Origin: Clostridiaceae bacterium HSG29
GTDB taxonomy: Bacteria; Bacillota; Clostridia; Peptostreptococcales; Acidaminobacteraceae
DNA length: 37,458 nt
Direction: 5' to 3'
Assembly (NCBI GenBank): GCA_030377915.1
Contig: JAUCFZ010000008.1
Span: 1 to 37,458 of the forward strand
Notes under the pieces: generated by a model
The model's input: the letters and a program-made list of their open reading frames with translations, nothing else
Database searches by the model: none
What the model was told of the DNA's origin: nothing
Translations under genes and position numbers: made by a program
Shown here: piece by piece, positions 4,347-36,641 of the stretch
How the letters are laid out: each line of letters starts with the position of its first letter
Numbering within the stretch: position 1 is the stretch's first letter

Positions 4347-6371
4347 ATGATTGATAATAGTAATGTAATGGAGTCAATGAGTATTAAATTAGATGGTGAA
4401 TTACCTGAGTATCCTGAATTTGATAAAAAGTATAGGAGAGCTCCTAAAAGAGAATTTAATTTATCTCAGAATGAAACGGAAATTGCGCTTAAGAATGCTT
4501 TAAGATATGTACCTGAAGAGTGGCATGAAATATTAGCTCCTGAATTTTTAGAGGAGTTAGAAACAAGAGGAAGAATTTATGGTTATAGATTTAGACCTCA
4601 AGGAAAATTAAACGGAAAACCATATAGTGAATATAAAGGAAACTGTGTTCAAGGTAAAGGTATTCAAGTAATGATAGACAACAATCTTGATTTTGAAATT
4701 GCACTTTATCCTTATGAGCTTGTTACTTATGGTGAAACAGGACAGGTATGTCAGAACTGGATGCAATATAGATTGATTATGAAATATCTTGAACAAATTA
4801 ATGAAAATCAAACTTTAGCTGTATTGTCTGGACATCCACTTGGACTTTTTAGATCTAAACCTGATGCTCCAAGAGTAATATTAAGTAATTCATTAATGAT
4901 TGGAATGTATGACAATCATGAAACTTGGCATAAAGCTAGTGCAATGGGTGTTGCAAATTATGGTCAAATGACTGCTGGTGGATGGATGTATATTGGACCA
5001 CAAGGAATCGTTCACGGTACATTTAATACTGTATTAAATGCAGGTAGATTAAAATTTGGTATTAAAGATGATGAAGATTTAAAAGGATTCTTATTTGTAA
5101 CTAGTGGACTTGGTGGTATGAGTGGTGCTCAAGGTAAAGCTATTAACATTGCTAACGGCGTAGGAATAATTGCTGAAGTTGATGAATCAAGAATCATAAC
5201 AAGACATGAACAAAATTGGATTGATTCATATTTTGATGATCCTGCAAAATGTGTTGAAGAAGCAAATGAATATATGGAAAAAGGTGAAGGAAGAGCAATT
5301 GGATTCCTAGGTAATATTGTTGATCTTCTAGAATACTTAGATAATAATGATGTTAAAGTTCATTTACTTTCTGATCAAACTTCATGTCATGCTGTTTATG
5401 AAGGTGGATATTGTCCTCAAGGAATTTCATTTGAAGAAAGAACTGAACTATTAGAAAATGATAAAGAGAAATTTATTGAATTAGTAGATAAATCGTTATT
5501 AAAACAATTTGAAATTATAAAAAGCCTTGATAAAAAAGGTGCATATTTCTTTGATTATGGAAACAGTTTTATGAAAGCAGTTTTAGATGCTGGAGCTGTT
5601 GAAATAGGAGCAAATGGAAAAGACGAAACTGAAGGCTTTATTTTCCCATCATATGTTGAAGATATTATGGGACCTATGTTATTTGATTATGGTTATGGTC
5701 CTTTCAGATGGGTTTGCTTAAGTGGAAAAGAAGAGGATTTAGTAAAAACAGATCATGCTGCAATGAGTTGTATTGATCCTAATAGAAGACCTCAAGATAG
5801 AGATAATTATGTTTGGGTTAGGGATGCTATGAAGAATAAATTAGTAGTTGGAACACAAGCAAGAATTCTTTATCAAGATGCTATGGGAAGAAGAGATATA
5901 GCACTTAAATTTAATAAAATGGTTAGAGATGGTGAAGTTGCACCAATTATGCTTGGTAGAGATCACCATGATACAGGTGGAACTGATTCGCCGTTTAGAG
6001 AAACTGCAAACATTTATGATGGTTCAAGAGTTATGGCAGATATGGCAACACATTGTTTTGCTGGAAATGCTGCTCGTGGAATGACTATGGTTGCACTTCA
6101 TAATGGTGGTGGAGTTGGAATAGGAAAAGTTATAAATGGTGGATTTGGATTAGTTTTAGATGGCTCTGAAAGAGTTGATGAAATTATAAATTCTGCAATT
6201 CCATGGGATGTTATGGTTGGTGTTTCTAGAAGATCATGGGCAAGAAATGAGCATTCTATAGAGACAGCAATTAAATATAATAAAGATAATAAAGATACAG
6301 ATCATATTACTATACCTTATGTAGCAGACGACAAATTGGTTGCCGATCTGGTTGGAAAAATTTTCAAATAA
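4347..6371 (+). CDS. hutU: Urocanate hydratase (urocanase), long form
   Basis: The 674-residue product catalyses the second step of histidine breakdown, urocanate plus water to 4-imidazolone-5-propionate, using tightly bound NAD+. The hallmark NAD-binding segment FVTSGLGGMSGAQGKA is present, as are QMTAGGWMYIGPQGIVHGT and the C-terminal stretch around GNAARGMTMVALHNGGGVGI. The length is close to the roughly 675-residue animal enzyme, not the roughly 555-residue proteobacterial and Bacillus HutU, so it belongs to the long-form clade. The N-terminal LKNALRYVPEEWHEILAPEF also resembles that clade. RBS AGGGGGG precedes the ATG. It is the first gene of the hutU-ftcD-hutI-fchA operon, with 18 bases to ftcD. 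Confidence 0.96.
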   Translation: MIDNSNVMESMSIKLDGELPEYPEFDKKYRRAPKREFNLSQNETEIALKNALRYVPEEWHEILAPEFLEELETRGRIYGYRFRPQGKLNGKPYSEYKGNCVQGKGIQVMIDNNLDFEIALYPYELVTYGETGQVCQNWMQYRLIMKYLEQINENQTLAVLSGHPLGLFRSKPDAPRVILSNSLMIGMYDNHETWHKASAMGVANYGQMTAGGWMYIGPQGIVHGTFNTVLNAGRLKFGIKDDEDLKGFLFVTSGLGGMSGAQGKAINIANGVGIIAEVDESRIITRHEQNWIDSYFDDPAKCVEEANEYMEKGEGRAIGFLGNIVDLLEYLDNNDVKVHLLSDQTSCHAVYEGGYCPQGISFEERTELLENDKEKFIELVDKSLLKQFEIIKSLDKKGAYFFDYGNSFMKAVLDAGAVEIGANGKDETEGFIFPSYVEDIMGPMLFDYGYGPFRWVCLSGKEEDLVKTDHAAMSCIDPNRRPQDRDNYVWVRDAMKNKLVVGTQARILYQDAMGRRDIALKFNKMVRDGEVAPIMLGRDHHDTGGTDSPFRETANIYDGSRVMADMATHCFAGNAARGMTMVALHNGGGVGIGKVINGGFGLVLDGSERVDEIINSAIPWDVMVGVSRRSWARNEHSIETAIKYNKDNKDTDHITIPYVADDKLVADLVGKIFK

Positions 6372-6389
6372 TAAAGGAGAAATAATAAA

Positions 6390-7286
6390 ATGTCTAATCA
6401 AATAGTGGAGTGTGTTCCTAATTTTTCAGAGGGTAGAGATTTAAAAAAAATTGAGAAAATATTGGATTGTTTTAGAGCTAAAGAAGGCGTAAAATTGTTA
6501 GATTATAGTTCTGATAAAGATCATAACAGATCTGTTGTTACTCTAGTAGGTCAACCTGAGGAAATTAAAAATGCAGTTGTCGAAGCGATGGGAGTTGCTA
6601 AGGACTTGATTGATTTAACAAAACATGATGGACAGCATCCAAGAATGGGTGCAACAGATGTAGTTCCATTTGTTCCTATTGACAATATTACTGTTGCTGA
6701 ATGTGTAGAACTTGCAAAAGAAACTGCATTACTTGCATTTGAAAAACATGGTATTCCAGTGTTTTTATATGAGTCTGCTGCAACAGCACCACATAGAGCT
6801 AATTTATCTAAAATAAGAAAAGGCCAATTTGAAGGAATGGCTGAAAAAATGACAGATCTAGATTGGAAACCTGATTTTGGTGAAACTATTCATCCAACAG
6901 CAGGTGTTACTGCAATTGGAGCGAGACCTTTCCTTGTTGCATATAATGTTATTTTAAATACTGATAATTTAGAGATTGCTACAAAGATTGGAAAAGCTGT
7001 TAGACATTTATCTGGAGGTTTAAGATATTGTAAAGCTATGGGTGTAACTATGGAAGACAGAGGACTTGTTCAAGTTTCAATGAACTTGACTAATTTTGAA
7101 AAAACACCTATTTATAGAGCATTTGAATTAATAAGAATCGAAGCAAAAAGATATGGAGTTACAGTTGTTGGAAGTGAAGTTATCGGAATGGTTCCTATGA
7201 AAGCATTAATTGATACTGCAGAGTATTATTTAGGAATTGAAGATTTTTCAATGGAACAAGTTTTAGAAAAAAGAATGATGGAATAA
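6390..7286 (+). CDS. ftcD: Glutamate formimidoyltransferase
   Basis: The 298-residue protein moves the formimino group of N-formimino-L-glutamate to tetrahydrofolate, releasing glutamate. Diagnostic stretches include the N-terminal QIVECVPNFSEGRDLKKIEK, DHNRSVVTLVGQP, HDGQHPRMGATDVVPFVP and TAIGARPFLVAYNVIL. The length matches the transferase half alone; in animals it is fused to the cyclodeaminase, which here is encoded separately three genes along. AAGGAG precedes the ATG, and the stop codon is two bases before hutI, so the two are probably translationally coupled. The pathway therefore takes the folate-dependent route from formiminoglutamate, not the hutG hydrolase route. Confidence 0.96.
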   Translation: MSNQIVECVPNFSEGRDLKKIEKILDCFRAKEGVKLLDYSSDKDHNRSVVTLVGQPEEIKNAVVEAMGVAKDLIDLTKHDGQHPRMGATDVVPFVPIDNITVAECVELAKETALLAFEKHGIPVFLYESAATAPHRANLSKIRKGQFEGMAEKMTDLDWKPDFGETIHPTAGVTAIGARPFLVAYNVILNTDNLEIATKIGKAVRHLSGGLRYCKAMGVTMEDRGLVQVSMNLTNFEKTPIYRAFELIRIEAKRYGVTVVGSEVIGMVPMKALIDTAEYYLGIEDFSMEQVLEKRMME

Positions 7287-7288
7287 AA

Positions 7289-8548
7289 ATGGAAAAATTA
7301 TTAATTAAAAATGCCAATCAAATAATTACTTGTAAATCGGAAGGTGCAAAAAAAGGTAATGAAATGAATGATTTATCAATTATTGAAAATGGTTCTATTT
7401 ATATTGAAGATGGAATAATTAAAAAAATTGGTAATTTTGATGAATTGAAATCGTTTGAAGAAAATGCAATTGTAATTGATGCAAAAAATAAAGTTGTTTT
7501 ACCAGGTTTTATTGATTCTCATACTCATTTTGTTTTTGGTGGTTATAGAGATGATGAATATTCATGGAGACTAGCTGGAATGGATTATATGGAAATTATG
7601 AACCGTGGCGGAGGAATAGCAAAATCAGTTAATCAAACAAAAGAAGCTTCAAAAGAGAAATTATTTAATGATGGAATTCAAAGATTAAATTCATTTGCTA
7701 ATTTTGGAGTAACAACTGTTGAAGGAAAAAGCGGTTATGGACTTGATTTTGATACTGAGATTAAACAACTTGAAGTTATGAAAGAATTAAATGAAGTTCA
7801 CTCATTAGATGTTGTAAGCACTTTTTTAGGTGCACATTCAGTACCAACTGAATATAAAAGACATTCAAGAGAATATATTGATTATATTATTAAAGAAGTT
7901 TTACCAGCTGTAAAAGAAAAAGATTTAGCAGAGTTTTGCGATATATTTACTGAGAAGAATGTATTTTCAGTAGAAGATTCAAAAAAATTATTAAATAGTG
8001 CAAAAGAAATGGGTTTTAAACTTAAAATGCATGCTGATGAAATTGTTAGAATTGGTGGGACTGAATTAGCTGGTGAATTGGGAGCTACTTCTGCAGATCA
8101 TTTACTAAAGGCTTCTGATGAAGGTTTAAAAATGTTAAGAGATAACGATGTTGTAGCAACTCTTTTACCCGCAACTGCATTTTCATTACAAGAAGATTAT
8201 GCAAGAGCAAGGTATATTATTGATAATGGAGGAGCAGTTGCAGTTGCAAGTGATTTTAATCCTGGTAGTTGTCATACTGAATCAATACCATTATTAATAG
8301 CTCTTTCTACAATAAAAATGAAAATGACAATTGAAGAAACAATAAATGCACTTACTATTAACGCAGCTAAAGCAATTGGAAGAGAAAAAACAATCGGTAG
8401 TATTGAGATAGGCAAAAAAGCAGATATTGTTATTCATAATTGTCCATCTTATAAATTTTTAGCATATCATATTGCTGTGAATTTAGTTGAAAAAGTAATA
8501 AAAAATGGTAAAATTATACTTGATAAAGAAATTAAAGGGGCTTTATAA
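7289..8548 (+). CDS. hutI: Imidazolonepropionase
   Basis: A 419-residue amidohydrolase that opens the imidazolone ring of 4-imidazolone-5-propionate to give N-formimino-L-glutamate. The metal-binding HxH is in VLPGFIDSHTHFVFGGYRDD (about residues 71-90). Further ligand segments are FLGAHSVPTEY, KLKMHADEI and ASDFNPGSCHTES. The C-terminal beta-sandwich portion has KADIVIH. It follows ftcD by two bases with no strong ribosome binding site of its own, consistent with coupling. An in-frame stretch of about 15 extra residues (ITCKSEGAKKGNEMNDLSII) lies in the N-terminal strand region. Confidence 0.95.
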   Translation: MEKLLIKNANQIITCKSEGAKKGNEMNDLSIIENGSIYIEDGIIKKIGNFDELKSFEENAIVIDAKNKVVLPGFIDSHTHFVFGGYRDDEYSWRLAGMDYMEIMNRGGGIAKSVNQTKEASKEKLFNDGIQRLNSFANFGVTTVEGKSGYGLDFDTEIKQLEVMKELNEVHSLDVVSTFLGAHSVPTEYKRHSREYIDYIIKEVLPAVKEKDLAEFCDIFTEKNVFSVEDSKKLLNSAKEMGFKLKMHADEIVRIGGTELAGELGATSADHLLKASDEGLKMLRDNDVVATLLPATAFSLQEDYARARYIIDNGGAVAVASDFNPGSCHTESIPLLIALSTIKMKMTIEETINALTINAAKAIGREKTIGSIEIGKKADIVIHNCPSYKFLAYHIAVNLVEKVIKNGKIILDKEIKGAL

Positions 8549-8558
8549 GGAGGAAATA

Positions 8559-9176
8559 ATGTTAGGTGATATGTATTTAAAGGAATTTCTTGAAAAGACT
8601 GCTTCAAAAGATCCGGTACCAGGTGGAGGATCAGTAGCTGCTTTATCAAGTGCTTTGTCAGCTTCTTTGGCGGCAATGGTTGCAAATTTAACAATAGGTA
8701 AGAAAAATTATGAAGAAATAAGTGATAAAATGGTAGAAATTGCTGAGGCACTAGATTTACGAAGAAGAGAGTTTGTTCAATTAATAGATAAAGATGCAAA
8801 TTCATTTGATTCAGTATTAAAAGCTTTTAAGATGCCTAAAGAAACAGATGAAGAAAAAAAATTAAGAACAGAAGCAATTCAAGATGGAATGAAATATGCG
8901 GCAAAAGTTCCATTAGGTGTTGCTATTGATGCATCAAAATTATTTGAGTATATAGAAATAGTTGTTAAAGAAGGAAATAAAAACGCTGTTACTGATGGTC
9001 TTGTTGCAGCTATGATGGCTAGAACTGCTATTAAAAGTGCTCTTTATAATGTAAAAATCAACCTTTCTTCAATAAAAGATGAAAATTTTGTTAACGAAAT
9101 GAAAGTACAAGTTGAAGAACTTGAGAATTTTGCTGATAAAAGAGAAAAAGAAATACTTGGATTATCAGAGCTTTAA
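8559..9176 (+). CDS. fchA: Formiminotetrahydrofolate cyclodeaminase
   Basis: A 205-residue, mostly helical protein of the FTCD_C family that converts 5-formimino-THF to 5,10-methenyl-THF plus ammonia, completing the folate branch of histidine degradation. The glycine-rich N-terminal motif DPVPGGGSVAALSSALSASL is characteristic, followed by DANSFDSVLKAFKMPKETDE and GNKNAVTDGLVAAMMA. The frame extends upstream to 8505 inside hutI, but AGGAGG nine bases before the ATG at 8559 fixes the start (MLGDMYLKEFL). It is the last gene of the operon and is followed by a terminator. Confidence 0.95.
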   Translation: MLGDMYLKEFLEKTASKDPVPGGGSVAALSSALSASLAAMVANLTIGKKNYEEISDKMVEIAEALDLRRREFVQLIDKDANSFDSVLKAFKMPKETDEEKKLRTEAIQDGMKYAAKVPLGVAIDASKLFEYIEIVVKEGNKNAVTDGLVAAMMARTAIKSALYNVKINLSSIKDENFVNEMKVQVEELENFADKREKEILGLSEL

Positions 9177-11665: not shown

Positions 11666-12499
11666 ATGAAACATAAGATAATAGGAGATAGTAGCACAGA
11701 TTTGAATGAAAATTTAAGAGAAAATTTTAAAATTGATATAGTTCCTTTAGTTCTAAATTTAGGTAATAAAGAATTTGTTGATATTAAAGGATTTGATACG
11801 AATCATTTCATTAATGAAATGATTAATTATGAAGGTATTCCTAAAACTGCTTGTCCATCGCCACAAGATTTTATAGAAAAATTTAAAGGTGATGAAGATG
11901 TTTTTGTTGTAACATTATCTAAAAAACTTAGTGGAACGTATAATTCAGCAGAATTAGCTAAACAAATATATTTAGAGGAAGAGACTGAAAAATTTATTCA
12001 TGTATTTAATTCAAAGTCAGCTTCAGTTGGCCAAACATTGATTGCTTTAAAAATAGATGAACTAATAAGAAATGATAAAGCAAGTGATGAAATAGTTGAA
12101 ATAACAGATAAATATATTGAGGAGATGCAGACATTTTTTGTTGCTGAATCATTAGATAATTTTATTAAAAATGGAAGAATTTCTAAATTATCTGGAGCTA
12201 TTGCAAGCACATTAAATATTATCCCTATTATGGGTTCTTTGCCAAGTGGTGATATTGAATTAAAAACTAAAAGCATTGGAAAAAAAGTTTATAAAAAATT
12301 AGTTGAAATAATAATAGAAAAATCTTTTGAACAGGAAAATAGAATTTTAGGTATTGCTCATGTAAATAATTTTAAAAGAGCTAATAAAATAAAAATAGAA
12401 TTAGAAAAAAAATGTAGTTTTAAAGATATTATAATTGTTGAAACAGGAGGATTATCAAGTATATATTGTGATAACCAGGGTATTATTATTGCTTTCTAG
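11666..12499 (+). CDS. DegV family fatty-acid-binding protein (first of tandem pair)
   Basis: The 277-residue DegV/FakB-type protein. In this family the protein cradles a fatty acid, and FakA kinase phosphorylates the bound acyl chain for phospholipid synthesis. The N-terminal domain has GDSSTDLNENL and the head-group segment PKTACPSPQDF (about residues 58-68), then SKKLSGTYNSAELAKQ and FNSKSASVGQ; the C-terminal domain has FIKNGRISKLSGAIASTLNI and ends GGLSSIYCDNQGI. AAGGAG overlaps the preceding stop codon, so it is in the same operon as the nucleosidase. No fakA is in this window. The ligand is not predictable. Confidence 0.9.
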   Translation: MKHKIIGDSSTDLNENLRENFKIDIVPLVLNLGNKEFVDIKGFDTNHFINEMINYEGIPKTACPSPQDFIEKFKGDEDVFVVTLSKKLSGTYNSAELAKQIYLEEETEKFIHVFNSKSASVGQTLIALKIDELIRNDKASDEIVEITDKYIEEMQTFFVAESLDNFIKNGRISKLSGAIASTLNIIPIMGSLPSGDIELKTKSIGKKVYKKLVEIIIEKSFEQENRILGIAHVNNFKRANKIKIELEKKCSFKDIIIVETGGLSSIYCDNQGIIIAF

Positions 12500-12508
12500 G
12501 AGGATGAA

Positions 12509-13339
12509 ATGGGAAATATTATTGCTGATAGTAGTTTAGATATTAATGATGATTTAAAGGAATTAGGTATTAAATTTATACCGTTTAAATTATATTTAGG
12601 AGATAAGGAATATATCGATGATGAAAAACTGAATCCGATCGACTTTATTTCAGATATGGTTAAATTTGATGGTTTGCCAAAAACAGCTTGCCCATCGCCG
12701 CATGATTTTATGGAAGCATTTGAGGAAAAAAAGAATAATTTTGTAGTAACAATTTCTGAAAAATTAAGTGGAACTTATAATTCTGCAATACTTGCAAAAA
12801 AATTATTTGAGGAAAAAAACACTGAGGGATTTGTACATGTATTTAATTCGAAATCTGCATCTGTTGGTGAAACATTAACTGCAATAAAAATTAATGAATT
12901 ACTTGAAAATAATTATAATACTGAAGTTATTGTTAAGACAGTAGAAAAATATATTGAAAATATGCGTACTTTCTTTGTTTCGGAAAATTTAAACAATTTA
13001 ATGAAAAACGGACGTATTTCAAAATTCCAGGGAACAATGGCAAATATATTTAGTATTAAGCCTGTTATGGGAACAAATGACGAAGGTGAAATAATTTTAT
13101 ATGAAAAATGTAGAGGCATAAAAAAAGCCTATACTACATTGAAAAATATTGTTAAGGAAAATGGTGGAAATATGAATGAAAAAATTCTTGCAATTTCACA
13201 TGTTAACAATATTGAGAGAGCTAATTATCTAAAAGAATTAATAGAAGAAGAATGTAATTTCAAGGAAATAATTATTATGCAAACTGGTGGATTATCAAGT
13301 TTATATTGCGATAATAAAGGAATAATATTGTCATTTTAA
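12509..13339 (+). CDS. DegV family fatty-acid-binding protein (second of tandem pair)
   Basis: The 276-residue product aligns with the previous gene along its whole length: IADSSLDINDDLKELG, PKTACPSPHDFMEAFEEK, SEKLSGTYNSAILAKK, HVFNSKSASVGET, LMKNGRISKFQGTMANIFSI and GGLSSLYCDNKGI. This points to tandem duplication followed by divergence. Both copies keep the head-group-binding Ser/Thr regions, so both should be functional lipid binders, perhaps with different acyl preferences as reported for paralogous FakB proteins. AGGAGG overlaps the stop of the first copy. A weak hairpin follows. Confidence 0.9.
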   Translation: MGNIIADSSLDINDDLKELGIKFIPFKLYLGDKEYIDDEKLNPIDFISDMVKFDGLPKTACPSPHDFMEAFEEKKNNFVVTISEKLSGTYNSAILAKKLFEEKNTEGFVHVFNSKSASVGETLTAIKINELLENNYNTEVIVKTVEKYIENMRTFFVSENLNNLMKNGRISKFQGTMANIFSIKPVMGTNDEGEIILYEKCRGIKKAYTTLKNIVKENGGNMNEKILAISHVNNIERANYLKELIEEECNFKEIIIMQTGGLSSLYCDNKGIILSF

Positions 13340-18750: not shown

Positions 18751-18924
18751 ATTATCAATCCTTTCATAAAAAAAAGTAAAAAAATGTTTAAGATAAAATA
18801 TTGCGGGTATAAATTTATTAACAATCAATAAGCCTTCAATGAAGGTTTATATAAATTGTAGTGGCCGGGATGTAAATATAGATTAGAAATCTATAATTAT
18901 TTTTAAAAAGATAATTGTAATAAA

Positions 18925-18980
18925 TAACAAGTAACAAGTAACAAGTAACAAGTAACAAGTAACAAGTAACAAATAACAAG
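18925..18980. repeat. Tandem repeat of TAACAAG, eight units
   Basis: Eight consecutive 7-bp units run from 18925 to 18980. Seven read TAACAAG and one (18967-18973) reads TAACAAA. The array sits in a gap without recognisable genes. As 7-mers they would shift the reading frame if copy number changed, though no gene clearly overlaps. Such minisatellites are prone to slippage, so copy number may vary between strains. Confidence 0.95.
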
Positions 18981-19124
18981 TAAAATGAGTAATGACACAT
19001 TTTGCAACAACAGTGTTTTTTCAAGTAGTTCGAAAGTAAGAAATGCAAGGAGGAATGCCGATTATAAAAACAAAGATTAGTAAAACTGAATATAAGTGTT
19101 CTGAACGTGCCTGCCGCTACTAAT
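18981..19124 (+). other. Gene-poor stretch, unidentified, less AT-rich than surroundings
   Basis: About 140 bases between the heptamer array and the Nudix gene. It is visibly richer in G+C than its neighbours (about 35% by my count over 18988-19118) and contains an AAGGAGG at 19049-19055. Two tiny plus-strand frames exist, 31 codons from 18984 and 22 codons from 19057, but the first lacks a ribosome binding site and the second starts one base after AAGGAGG, which is too close. The part before the array (18751-18924) holds an imperfect hairpin near 18828-18850 and ATAGATT/AATCTAT near 18879-18896. I see no known RNA or gene. Confidence 0.4.
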
Positions 19125-35015: not shown

Positions 35016-35032
35016 ATAAAAAGGTGATAAAG

Positions 35033-35869
35033 ATGAATAATGACATTTCAGTTATTTCAAATATATTTTATATAATAAAAAAATTAATGAAAAGATATAG
35101 GGAACATTCTATTAGTGCTTATAGTGCGCAAATGGCATTTTTTTTAATGCTGTCAATTTTTCCTTTTTTGATATTTTTATTTACCATTTTAGGAAGATTA
35201 TCAATGAATACTGATTTATTGATGCAAGTTTTGCAAGTGTTTTTCCCTGAAAGTGTTCATAAACTTGCATTTGATTTTATTAATAATTATATTTTAGTAA
35301 AAGATAATAGTGTTATTTCAGTATCGATAATTGCCACTTTATGGTCAGCTTCAAAAGGGATAAGAGGACTTATGGTATCGTTAAATAAAGCATATGAAAT
35401 AAAAGAAACTAGAGGTTTTTTTGTAATTAAAATTATTGATATTCTTTATACAGTTTTAATTGTTTTTGTAATTGTAATTCTACTTGCACTCCCAAATATT
35501 GGAGTAGATTTATATAATTTTGTTAATAGGTATATTGAAATTAAGTGGGAAATTTTCACTCTTTATAATAGAATAAAAATAATCATGTTACCTTTAACTT
35601 TAGTTTTAATTATGAGTTTAATATATATGTATATTCCAAATATAAAGCAAAAACCAAATGATGTGATTTGGGGAACTTTATTTTCAATATTTGGATGGGC
35701 AACGCTGTCTTATTTCTTTACAATATTTTTAAATAATTTTTCGAATTATAAATTAGTCTATGGTAGTCTTGCGACAGTAATTATTTTAATGTTCTGGTTA
35801 TATTTTGGAAGTATGATTTTGATAATAGGTGGTGAAATAAACTCTATTTTAAAGAAGATAGAAGGGTAA
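35033..35869 (+). CDS. YihY/BrkB family inner membrane protein
   Basis: The 278-residue product is a polytopic membrane protein with about six hydrophobic segments, such as AYSAQMAFFLMLSIFPFLIF, SVISVSIIATLWSASKGIRG, VLIVFVIVILLALPNI, IMLPLTLVLIMSLIYMYI and ATVIILMFWLYFGSMILIIG. The conserved family stretches are the N-terminal YSAQMAFFLMLSIFPF, WSASKGIRGLMVSLNKAYEI, YIPNIKQKP and GGEINSIL near the end. Despite the old name ribonuclease BN, the family is not a nuclease and its function is unsettled. AAGGTG precedes the ATG at 35033; a GTG at 35024 lies in that site. It is divergent from hflK and followed by a bidirectional terminator. Confidence 0.88.
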   Translation: MNNDISVISNIFYIIKKLMKRYREHSISAYSAQMAFFLMLSIFPFLIFLFTILGRLSMNTDLLMQVLQVFFPESVHKLAFDFINNYILVKDNSVISVSIIATLWSASKGIRGLMVSLNKAYEIKETRGFFVIKIIDILYTVLIVFVIVILLALPNIGVDLYNFVNRYIEIKWEIFTLYNRIKIIMLPLTLVLIMSLIYMYIPNIKQKPNDVIWGTLFSIFGWATLSYFFTIFLNNFSNYKLVYGSLATVIILMFWLYFGSMILIIGGEINSILKKIEG

Positions 35870-35870
35870 A

Positions 35871-35898
35871 AAAAAACATCCTATAATTGGATGTTTTT
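35871..35898. terminator. Bidirectional terminator between the YihY-family and HesB-like genes
   Basis: AAAAACATCC (35872-35881) pairs with GGATGTTTTT (35889-35898) across TATAATT. A/T runs form part of the stem on both sides, so it can end transcripts from either direction. Confidence 0.8.
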
Positions 35899-35907
35899 AA
35901 TAATCTA

Positions 35908-36216
35908 TTAGCAACCTGAGCATGAACCACAATCAGACGGCTCTTGATTTGTAGGAATTACACTGAATCCATTCATTTTGTATTCAACAGTAATTTCTCC
36001 CATTTGATCATATATATCTTTTGCCATAATGAACTTAGTTCCAAAGGCTTCTTCCATAACATCTTCTGGTTTCTTTTCGTCTAGACCTAGACCTAATGAT
36101 GGACCACCTCAACCAATACCTGCTATAAATATTCTTACACTTTTAGGTTTGTCTTGTTGTGCTTCTAATATTTTCTGAATTTCATTACATGTTTCTTCAT
36201 TTGTTTTTATATACAT
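35908..36216 (-). CDS. HesB/IscA-like selenoprotein with in-frame TGA (Sec36)
   Basis: Read through a TGA at codon 36 (complement of 36109-36111), this is a 102-residue protein. The ATG is at 36216 with GGAGGTG nine bases upstream. The N-terminus is MYIKTNEETCNEIQKILEAQ; around the TGA it reads IFIAGIG-Sec-GGPSLGLGLDE; and the C-terminus is DCGSCSGC. Known HesB-like proteins have Cys or selenocysteine in the same GxG(C/U)GGP setting and a Cys-rich tail, and act in iron-sulfur or related metal handling. The reading frame, motif conservation and codon pattern continue across the TGA. TGA is used as a normal stop elsewhere here (acyP, ACT gene, nudix), so this is not a changed genetic code. A SECIS-like hairpin follows the TGA. 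Ordinary gene calling would report only fragments. Confidence 0.88.
36079..36092 (-). promoter_or_regulatory. Candidate bacterial SECIS hairpin
   Basis: Starting 17 bases after the TGA on the minus strand, GTCTA pairs with TAGAC around the loop GGTC (palindromic sequence at 36079-36092). The apical loop begins 22 bases after the TGA and with G in its first two positions. Both fit the published bacterial SECIS rules, which ask for a loop 16-37 bases downstream with an early G. SelB would bind here to insert selenocysteine. The hairpin is only 5 bp. Confidence 0.65.
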
Positions 36217-36237
36217 AATAAAACACCTCCATTTAAT

Positions 36238-36265
36238 AATTTAACATGAAAACAAAAAATGTCAA
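36238..36265 (-). promoter_or_regulatory. Promoter of the HesB-like selenoprotein gene
   Basis: On the minus strand a perfect TTGACA (complement of 36260-36265) is followed after 16 bases by TAAATT (complement of 36238-36243), about 20 bases before the start codon. The -35 is strong and the -10 partial. Confidence 0.55.
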
Positions 36266-36377: not shown

Positions 36378-36641
36378 ATGAAAATAATTTATTCTGGAAG
36401 AGTTCAGGGAGTTGGTTTTAGGTATTTTGTATATTCAAACGCTCTAAAATACCAGATATCTGGATATGTAAAAAATCTTTTTAATGGAAATGTTGAATTG
36501 GTAATTAATGATGATTCAAGAAATATTAAAGTTTTTCTTTTAGAAATTAGAAATGGTAATGGATACTCTAGAATATTAAATGAGGAAAGTAGTAATTATT
36601 TATGCAATGATAGTATATTTAGAATTAAATATGGAGGATGA
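36378..36641 (+). CDS. acyP: Acylphosphatase
   Basis: An 87-residue enzyme that hydrolyses acyl phosphates such as acetyl phosphate and carbamoyl phosphate. The signature YSGRVQGVGFRYFVYSNAL holds the phosphate-binding loop and catalytic R15; the second conserved stretch GYVKNLFNGNVEL has N33. The usual length is about 90. AGGATG precedes the ATG. The stop overlaps the ribosome binding region of the next gene (ACT protein), so the two are co-transcribed. A TTTTAA / TATACT pair (36314-36342) with a 17-base spacer is a possible promoter. Confidence 0.93.
   Translation: MKIIYSGRVQGVGFRYFVYSNALKYQISGYVKNLFNGNVELVINDDSRNIKVFLLEIRNGNGYSRILNEESSNYLCNDSIFRIKYGG

Follow-up and report, generated by a model that had tools for sequence, protein, structure and literature searches.

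Evidence for a HesB-like selenoprotein gene with a CxxCxxC tail in Clostridiaceae bacterium HSG29

The window, by which is meant the whole 37,458-nucleotide stretch of contig JAUCFZ010000008.1 of Clostridiaceae bacterium HSG29 that was analysed, contains a short minus-strand gene whose frame runs from an ATG at 36216 to a TAA at 35908 and is interrupted by one TGA, at codon 36 (Table 1). When this codon is read as selenocysteine (Sec, U), translation yields a product of 102 amino acids, MYIKTNEETCNEIQKILEAQQDKPKSVRIFIAGIGUGGPSLGLGLDEKKPEDVMEEAFGTKFIMAKDIYDQMGEITVEYKMNGFSVIPTNQEPSDCGSCSGC. An earlier note on this DNA had described the context of the codon as GIG-TGA-GGPSLGLGLDE and the end of the protein as DCGSCSGC, and translation confirmed both, with codon 36 as the sole TGA in the frame. 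It had also held that ordinary gene finding would break the gene, which under the ordinary code does fall into a piece of 35 amino acids and a piece of at most 49.

Table 1. Features at and around the HesB-like gene (window coordinates)
Feature	Position	Strand	Basis
Predicted HesB-like selenoprotein gene	35908..36216	(-)	102 codons plus TAA; translation with TGA as U, 93 homologous frames, sister orthologue 91-92% identical
In-frame TGA, codon 36, predicted Sec of UxGP motif	36109..36111	(-)	Column TGA 64/93, Cys 29/93
C-terminal motif CGSCSGC (Cys96, Cys99, Cys102)	35911..35931	(-)	Cys96 and Cys99 identical in all 28 sequences of the alignment
Candidate bacterial SECIS hairpin GUCUA-GGUC-UAGAC; UGA-to-loop distance 21 nt	36079..36092	(-)	Comparison of Sec and Cys rows
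Ribosome binding site GGAGGTG	36224..36230	(-)	Direct sequence reading
Promoter-like site TTGACA-N16-TAAATT, alternatively 18-nt spacing to AATTAT	36236..36265	(-)	Consensus scan; hexamers kept in sister
Terminator-like hairpin AAAAACATCC-loop-GGATGTTTTT, then TTTT	35868..35898	(-)	10 pairs on folding
BrkB family (PF03631), convergent downstream neighbour	35024..35869	(+)	Pfam 191.7 bits; context
Acylphosphatase (PF00708), divergent upstream neighbour	36378..36641	(+)	Pfam 67.9 bits; context

The chance of meeting no TAA or TAG across 101 codons is 0.0004 at the local base composition, and the window contains eight frames that span 95 codons or more and include a single TGA, the HesB-like frame among them, so the open frame is by itself weak evidence; it is homology and conservation that make the identity of the gene certain. 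Among the expression signals credited to the gene in the earlier note, the ribosome binding site can be read directly, its GGAGG lying 9 nt 5' of the ATG, while the others stand in part. Both promoter-like hexamers are present and conserved in the closest relative (the sister genome described below), but the three promoter-like consensus sites found compare with 3.6 expected from shuffled sequence, so the consensus on its own proves nothing. The terminator-like hairpin folds, and the sister gene likewise ends in a hairpin with a T-tract, but the terminator scan listed no site at the 3' end of the HesB-like gene.

The gene is isolated between a convergent gene of the BrkB family and a divergent pair that encodes an acylphosphatase and an ACT-domain protein. 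Scans of 10 neighbouring proteins, three from the window and seven chosen from 85 neighbour ORFs at 27 loci, returned no Fe-S, nif or isc protein and gave no functional link from gene neighbourhood. LysR regulators account for four of the seven neighbours scanned in relatives and for none of the three in the window. In Methanococcus maripaludis, Cys isogenes are repressed under adequate selenium by HrsM, a regulator of the LysR type (PMC11097638); nothing here shows a tie between the neighbouring LysR regulators and a control of that kind.

The assignment of the product to the HesB-like family in the earlier note is upheld by its two best NCBIfam matches, though both fall below the curated cut-offs for formal membership: NF038090 IscA_HesB_Se, the best family match (residues 6-100), scores 62.6 bits against a cut-off of 85, and TIGR01911 HesB_rel_seleno scores 36.3 against 66.35. 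The same pattern extends to its homologues, as all 28 sequences of the alignment (28 of the 30 loci L017-L046, with L023 and L034 omitted and the window gene representing L017) match both models at E<=0.001, and none of 10 chosen homologues reaches either NCBIfam cut-off; for this scoring four of the 93 rows, each with additional TGA codons, were skipped and one of the 10 proteins was end-trimmed. Pfam gave no match for the window protein, PF01521 included, and one of the 28 aligned sequences weakly matches Fe-S_biosyn; the TIGR00049 score is 32.2, below the cut-off of 58.8.

More distant comparisons point to the A-type carriers. A profile search against solved structures reached HI1723 (4e-11), AQ_1857 (9e-10) and E. 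coli IscA/YfhF (0.003). An AlphaFold2 model built with Cys at position 36 (mean pLDDT 84.9, with residues 91-102 low) gave 10 Foldseek matches in the PDB at E<=0.001, including HI1723, IscA, SufA, DsrR and AQ_1857; the values for HI1723, IscA, SufA and AQ_1857, from 5e-6 to 9e-4, assign the predicted structure to the A-type carrier fold. The residues invariant in the 28 aligned sequences are R28, G33, U/C36, G38, P39, G42, L43, D46, D52, F62, G73, G83, V86, P88, C96 and C99, and the UxGP motif is present as U36-G37-G38-P39. In IscA the tail Cys are spaced as CxC. The window protein thus resembles IscA, SufA and ErpA in its predicted fold, in the site of the first ligand Cys and in having Cys near the C-terminus, but it differs from them in carrying Sec for Cys at that site, in 16-25% identity, in scores below the curated cut-offs and in its tail, where C96-x2-C99-x2-C102 stands with Sec36 in place of the Cys...CxC ligand set of A-type carriers. 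With the HesB-like selenoproteins of TIGR01911 it shares Sec in UxGP at the family's Cys/Sec site and a length of about 100 amino acids, and it departs from them in its score and in its CxxCxxC tail.

A scan of named genomes returned one relative, a MAG of the same genus (Peptostreptococcaceae bacterium isolate 4559-240_metabat2_scaf2bin.058, JAMOQG010000125.1), which is the closest relative and is referred to here as the sister. Its orthologue has TGA at the identical codon, and 23 other base differences separate the two genes: 14 changes fall 5' of the TGA (dN 0.111, dS 0.327) and nine fall 3' of it, six of them at third positions (dN 0.019, dS 0.164), all four rates being drawn from few changes. 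Protein matches were obtained in 52 of 61 genomes, a set made up of 60 relatives and the genome of the window itself. The profile search gave 96 frames, and removal of three duplicates of the window or sister genes (L049, L056, L108) left 93 homologous frames. When these were aligned, the Cys and Sec homologues together, the codon-36 column proved to hold TGA in 64 frames, Cys in 29 (16 TGT, 13 TGC) and no other residue in any, which places the TGA at the Cys/Sec position of the family, as the earlier note had asserted. Wider sampling across the phylum (299 genomes, counting the window's own) gave matches in 50 genomes, and a TGA lies somewhere within 44 of the 55 matches listed.

Co-occurrence with the Sec pathway was counted with selA and not with tRNA-Sec, because the tRNA-Sec model matches all 14 control genomes (five over cut-off); the selA model matches four of the 14 controls and exceeds its cut-off in one. 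There is a selA match in 55 of the 61 genomes, over cut-off in 54, the exception being G009, whose selA is a fragment under the cut-off. TGA copies of the HesB-like gene occur in 42 genomes, every one of which has a selA match, and the six selA-less genomes include two with a Cys copy (G010, G049), four with no copy and none with a TGA copy.

These observations bear on two explanations that dispense with Sec. A Cys codon (TGT or TGC) could have mutated to TGA in a pseudogene or been misread as TGA, and a short gene on a fragmented assembly, in a family where 29 of 93 homologues do carry Cys, might seem a fitting case; however, the TGA is shared with the sister MAG, whose gene differs at 23 other bases and shows few amino-acid replacements beyond that codon, the column holds nothing but TGA or Cys in 93 frames, and TGA copies are missing from the selA-less genomes, so that error or decay is very unlikely and was rejected. 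Still more improbable is a host that decodes UGA as tryptophan or reads through it generally, for which nothing speaks except the open frame: TGA is an ordinary stop elsewhere, ending four of the 38 main ORFs of the window, these ORFs contain 56 TGG codons, the residue that alternates with TGA in the 93 homologous frames is Cys and never Trp, and Sec machinery is present, so this explanation was rejected as well. On sequence evidence, the identity of the gene as a selenoprotein gene appears close to certain, and its UGA is very probably decoded as Sec in the cell.

A working Sec pathway had been predicted for this genome, and its protein components were found. The assembly that contains the window (266 contigs, 86.3% complete) carries selD, selA and selB consecutively on contig C187, with scores of 380.9, 589.9 and 349.2 bits, all above the curated cut-offs; only such scores count for selB and selD, since at E<=0.001 both models match 14 of 14 control genomes, with the cut-off passed by two of the 14 in each case. 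The selB gene is seen in part, as it runs off the end of the contig. The selD gene on the same contig (L047, about 1.9-2.9 kb) encodes a Sec form itself, its own in-frame TGA lying within SGUGAKI.

The tRNA component of the prediction did not emerge from this incomplete assembly. A search for tRNA-Sec gave nothing at the cut-off of 47; of its six sub-threshold matches, the best (34.2 bits) is a tRNA-Leu according to ARAGORN, and the other five belong to a cluster of tRNA genes on contig C167. The sister has a tRNA-Sec with anticodon TCA (ARAGORN; Rfam 64.2 bits) about 3 kb beyond selB, separated from it by three frames of which two, by eye, resemble a two-component pair. When 8 kb of this sister region was searched in the window's assembly, the close match (90%) stopped at the end of C187, inside selB, and the remaining 14 matches, on other contigs, were short or paralogue-like (65-86% identical); the absence of tRNA-Sec is therefore best read as an assembly gap. 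Some matches in the relatives that barely pass the cut-off of the tRNA-Sec model, at 47-50 bits, probably represent other tRNAs.

Other TGA-bearing genes are present in the same assembly. GrdA with a TGA occurs at two places, one scoring 243.6 bits and the other, a partial match, 151.1 bits. On contig C142, grdA is flanked by two matches to the PrdB model that also contain TGA; both stay under the model's cut-off and are likely to be GrdB-type proteins. Judged from its grd genes, the host is probably an anaerobe that ferments glycine.

When folding downstream of codon 36 was compared with synonymous recodings, the Sec rows of the alignment had a mean z of -1.39 (n=64) and the Cys rows one of -0.02 (n=29), a difference with a rank-test P of 2e-7 among rows that are related to each other. 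Two registers account for most Sec rows: a 25-nt distance from UGA to loop is found in 44 of them (43 distinct), with changes on both sides of the stem at pairs 1, 3, 4, 5 and 7, and a 21-nt distance with loop GGUC or GGUU in 14 (13 distinct), the window included, which leaves six of the 64 fitting neither. Among the Cys rows, 23 of 29 fit neither register, four form five pairs at the 21-nt distance and two form six at the 25-nt distance.

The clade of the window on the protein tree provides the sharpest comparison, since it consists of 24 rows of which 13 are Sec and 11 are Cys. In the 21-nt register, all 13 Sec rows form a stem of five pairs or more, whereas the 11 Cys rows, which encode almost the same peptide (GLGLD), have zero or one pair, so that codon choice here is tied to the UGA. 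The fourteenth row in the 21-nt register, the downstream tandem copy of G014, lies elsewhere on the tree on a long branch. Taken singly, the window hairpin does no better than synonymous shuffles (z +0.37; 54% match its score) or dinucleotide shuffles at three window sizes (z -0.21, +0.25 and +1.04), and an Rfam search around the gene at a relaxed E-value gave 10 matches, none at gathering score; the hairpin is thus a candidate SECIS on comparative grounds, the single sequence being non-significant. Its GGUC loop presumably resembles that of the SECIS of E. coli fdhF.

The distribution of Sec, Cys and tail thiols across the family suggests a history of exchange. On a tree of the 93 rows the Sec/Cys label requires nine changes, eight of which are forced by well-supported branches, so each residue has repeatedly given way to the other; a published table covering 11 HesB-like selenoproteins records two Sec-to-Cys and no Cys-to-Sec events (PMC1794560). 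Tandem pairs occur in 11 genomes (G008, G014, G016, G018, G019, G021, G026, G028, G030, G032 and G035), in which the upstream copy carries Cys and three tail Cys and the downstream copy carries Sec and zero or one tail Cys. The tandem HesB-like loci are L019, L020, L021, L022, L023, L024, L025, L026, L027, L029 and L032. A separate pair in G002 and G022 has Sec first and Cys second, with the tail in both.

If tail Cys are taken as those after the column of residue 88, none of the 29 Cys rows has fewer than two, and the Sec rows divide into 19 of 64 with at least two, the window included, and 45 with zero or one; as a few of the 93 frames, recognised by additional TGA codons, extend beyond where the gene probably ends, these counts are rough, above all for G057. 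Since the tail is kept in 19 Sec rows, Sec does not require its loss, and the association between the two rests on related rows and perhaps reflects two independent tail losses. The sister has a second HesB-like selenoprotein gene, L097, whose TGA falls in the codon-36 column and whose tail holds one Cys; no counterpart turned up in the assembly that contains the window.

The window and sister genes form a lineage beside the tandem-pair clade, with support of 98/96 on the 93-row tree and 97/93 on a 41-row tree of chosen rows from which the downstream Sec copies of G014 and G019, both on long branches, were omitted. A lineage that predates the tandem duplication is therefore favoured by the trees; AU tests rejected neither a grouping with the Sec copies (p-AU 0.329) nor one with the Cys copies (p-AU 0.316). 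It is conceivable, though we would not count on it, that the window gene represents the undivided ancestral form, with Sec36 and CxxCxxC in one protein, and that its chemistry was split in the tandem pairs of the 11 relatives: the upstream copy would have exchanged Sec for Cys and retained the three-Cys tail, and the downstream copy would have lost the tail but retained Sec together with its SECIS. If the association is causal, Sec might make up for the lost tail thiols, and a Sec/Cys pair could act as a selenium-status switch or supply two carriers for different cargo.

The proposal that best accommodates these results is that the gene, as a single-gene transcription unit, would produce a Sec-containing A-type-carrier-like protein of the HesB/IscA superfamily. 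SelB with Sec-tRNA would decode the codon-36 UGA, aided by the SECIS hairpin within the next 30 nt, and translation would proceed past it to the CxxCxxC tail. This explanation as a whole is highly likely, given the conserved recoding site, the conservation downstream of it, the selA, selB and selD genes, and the homology to IscA and SufA with a predicted fold to match. Fe-S ligands of A-type proteins comprise one Cys nearer the N-terminus and two in the C-terminal tail (PMC7144353), and Sec36 may stand in for the first of these, so that, together with the tail Cys, it would bind or transfer iron, an Fe-S cluster or related cargo.

Whether the protein serves as a metal or Fe-S carrier is, in our estimate, an even call. 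The main rival is a real selenoprotein that works in thiol/selenol redox chemistry, reducing peroxides or disulfides for instance, a role to which we assign a smaller but substantial share. The majority of uncharacterised selenoproteins are considered likely to have redox functions (PMC13188914), the Sec site is accompanied by a Cys-rich tail, and an Fe-S gene is absent from the 10 neighbours scanned; on the other hand, fold and site match the IscA and SufA carriers in both the predicted model and the profile, and none of the 10 Foldseek matches at E<=0.001 is to a thioredoxin fold. An A-type carrier with Sec as its first ligand is accordingly the best-supported role that we can infer.

HesB-like or HesB selenoproteins have been described before (PMC1242214, PMC1794560, PMC9312934, PMC13188914), in the first two cases in papers of 2005 and 2006, and their published motif is UxGP (PMC13188914). 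The gene therefore joins a known family, to which it is a well-supported addition. A homologue from M. maripaludis is reported to have been identified through mutagenesis and 75Se labelling; its function is termed not clear, and an unpublished observation cited in the same source has nitrogen fixation unimpaired in a disruption mutant (PMC11097638). That protein is archaeal and shares its family name with the window protein. No title or abstract opening among the matches listed mentions tandem Sec/Cys HesB pairs or a tail rule, in a search outside which most subscription journals lie, and the newness is modest: the combination of Sec with a CxxCxxC tail, on a lineage that probably branches before the duplication that gave the tandem Cys/Sec pairs.

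The gene offers a clean and checkable case in which ordinary gene calling breaks at the UGA and the product scores below the curated family cut-offs. Sec and Cys copies of near-identical peptide within the same genomes also provide a natural control for SECIS constraint on codon choice, and for a trade between Sec/Cys and neighbouring thiols in a family whose role is still not clear.

The remainder of the window includes several further features. A c-di-GMP-I riboswitch (293-375) precedes a chemotaxis-receptor-like gene and a T-box leader (2595-2793) precedes an asparaginyl-tRNA-synthetase-like gene, both genes being named by eye. Positions 4347-9176 hold a histidine degradation cluster of hutU, ftcD and hutI with a cyclohydrolase-like gene that scores below its model's cut-off, two adjacent DegV-family genes lie at 11666-13339, and an intergenic 7-bp tandem repeat, GTAACAA, extends over 9.6 copies with 91% matches at 18917-18983.
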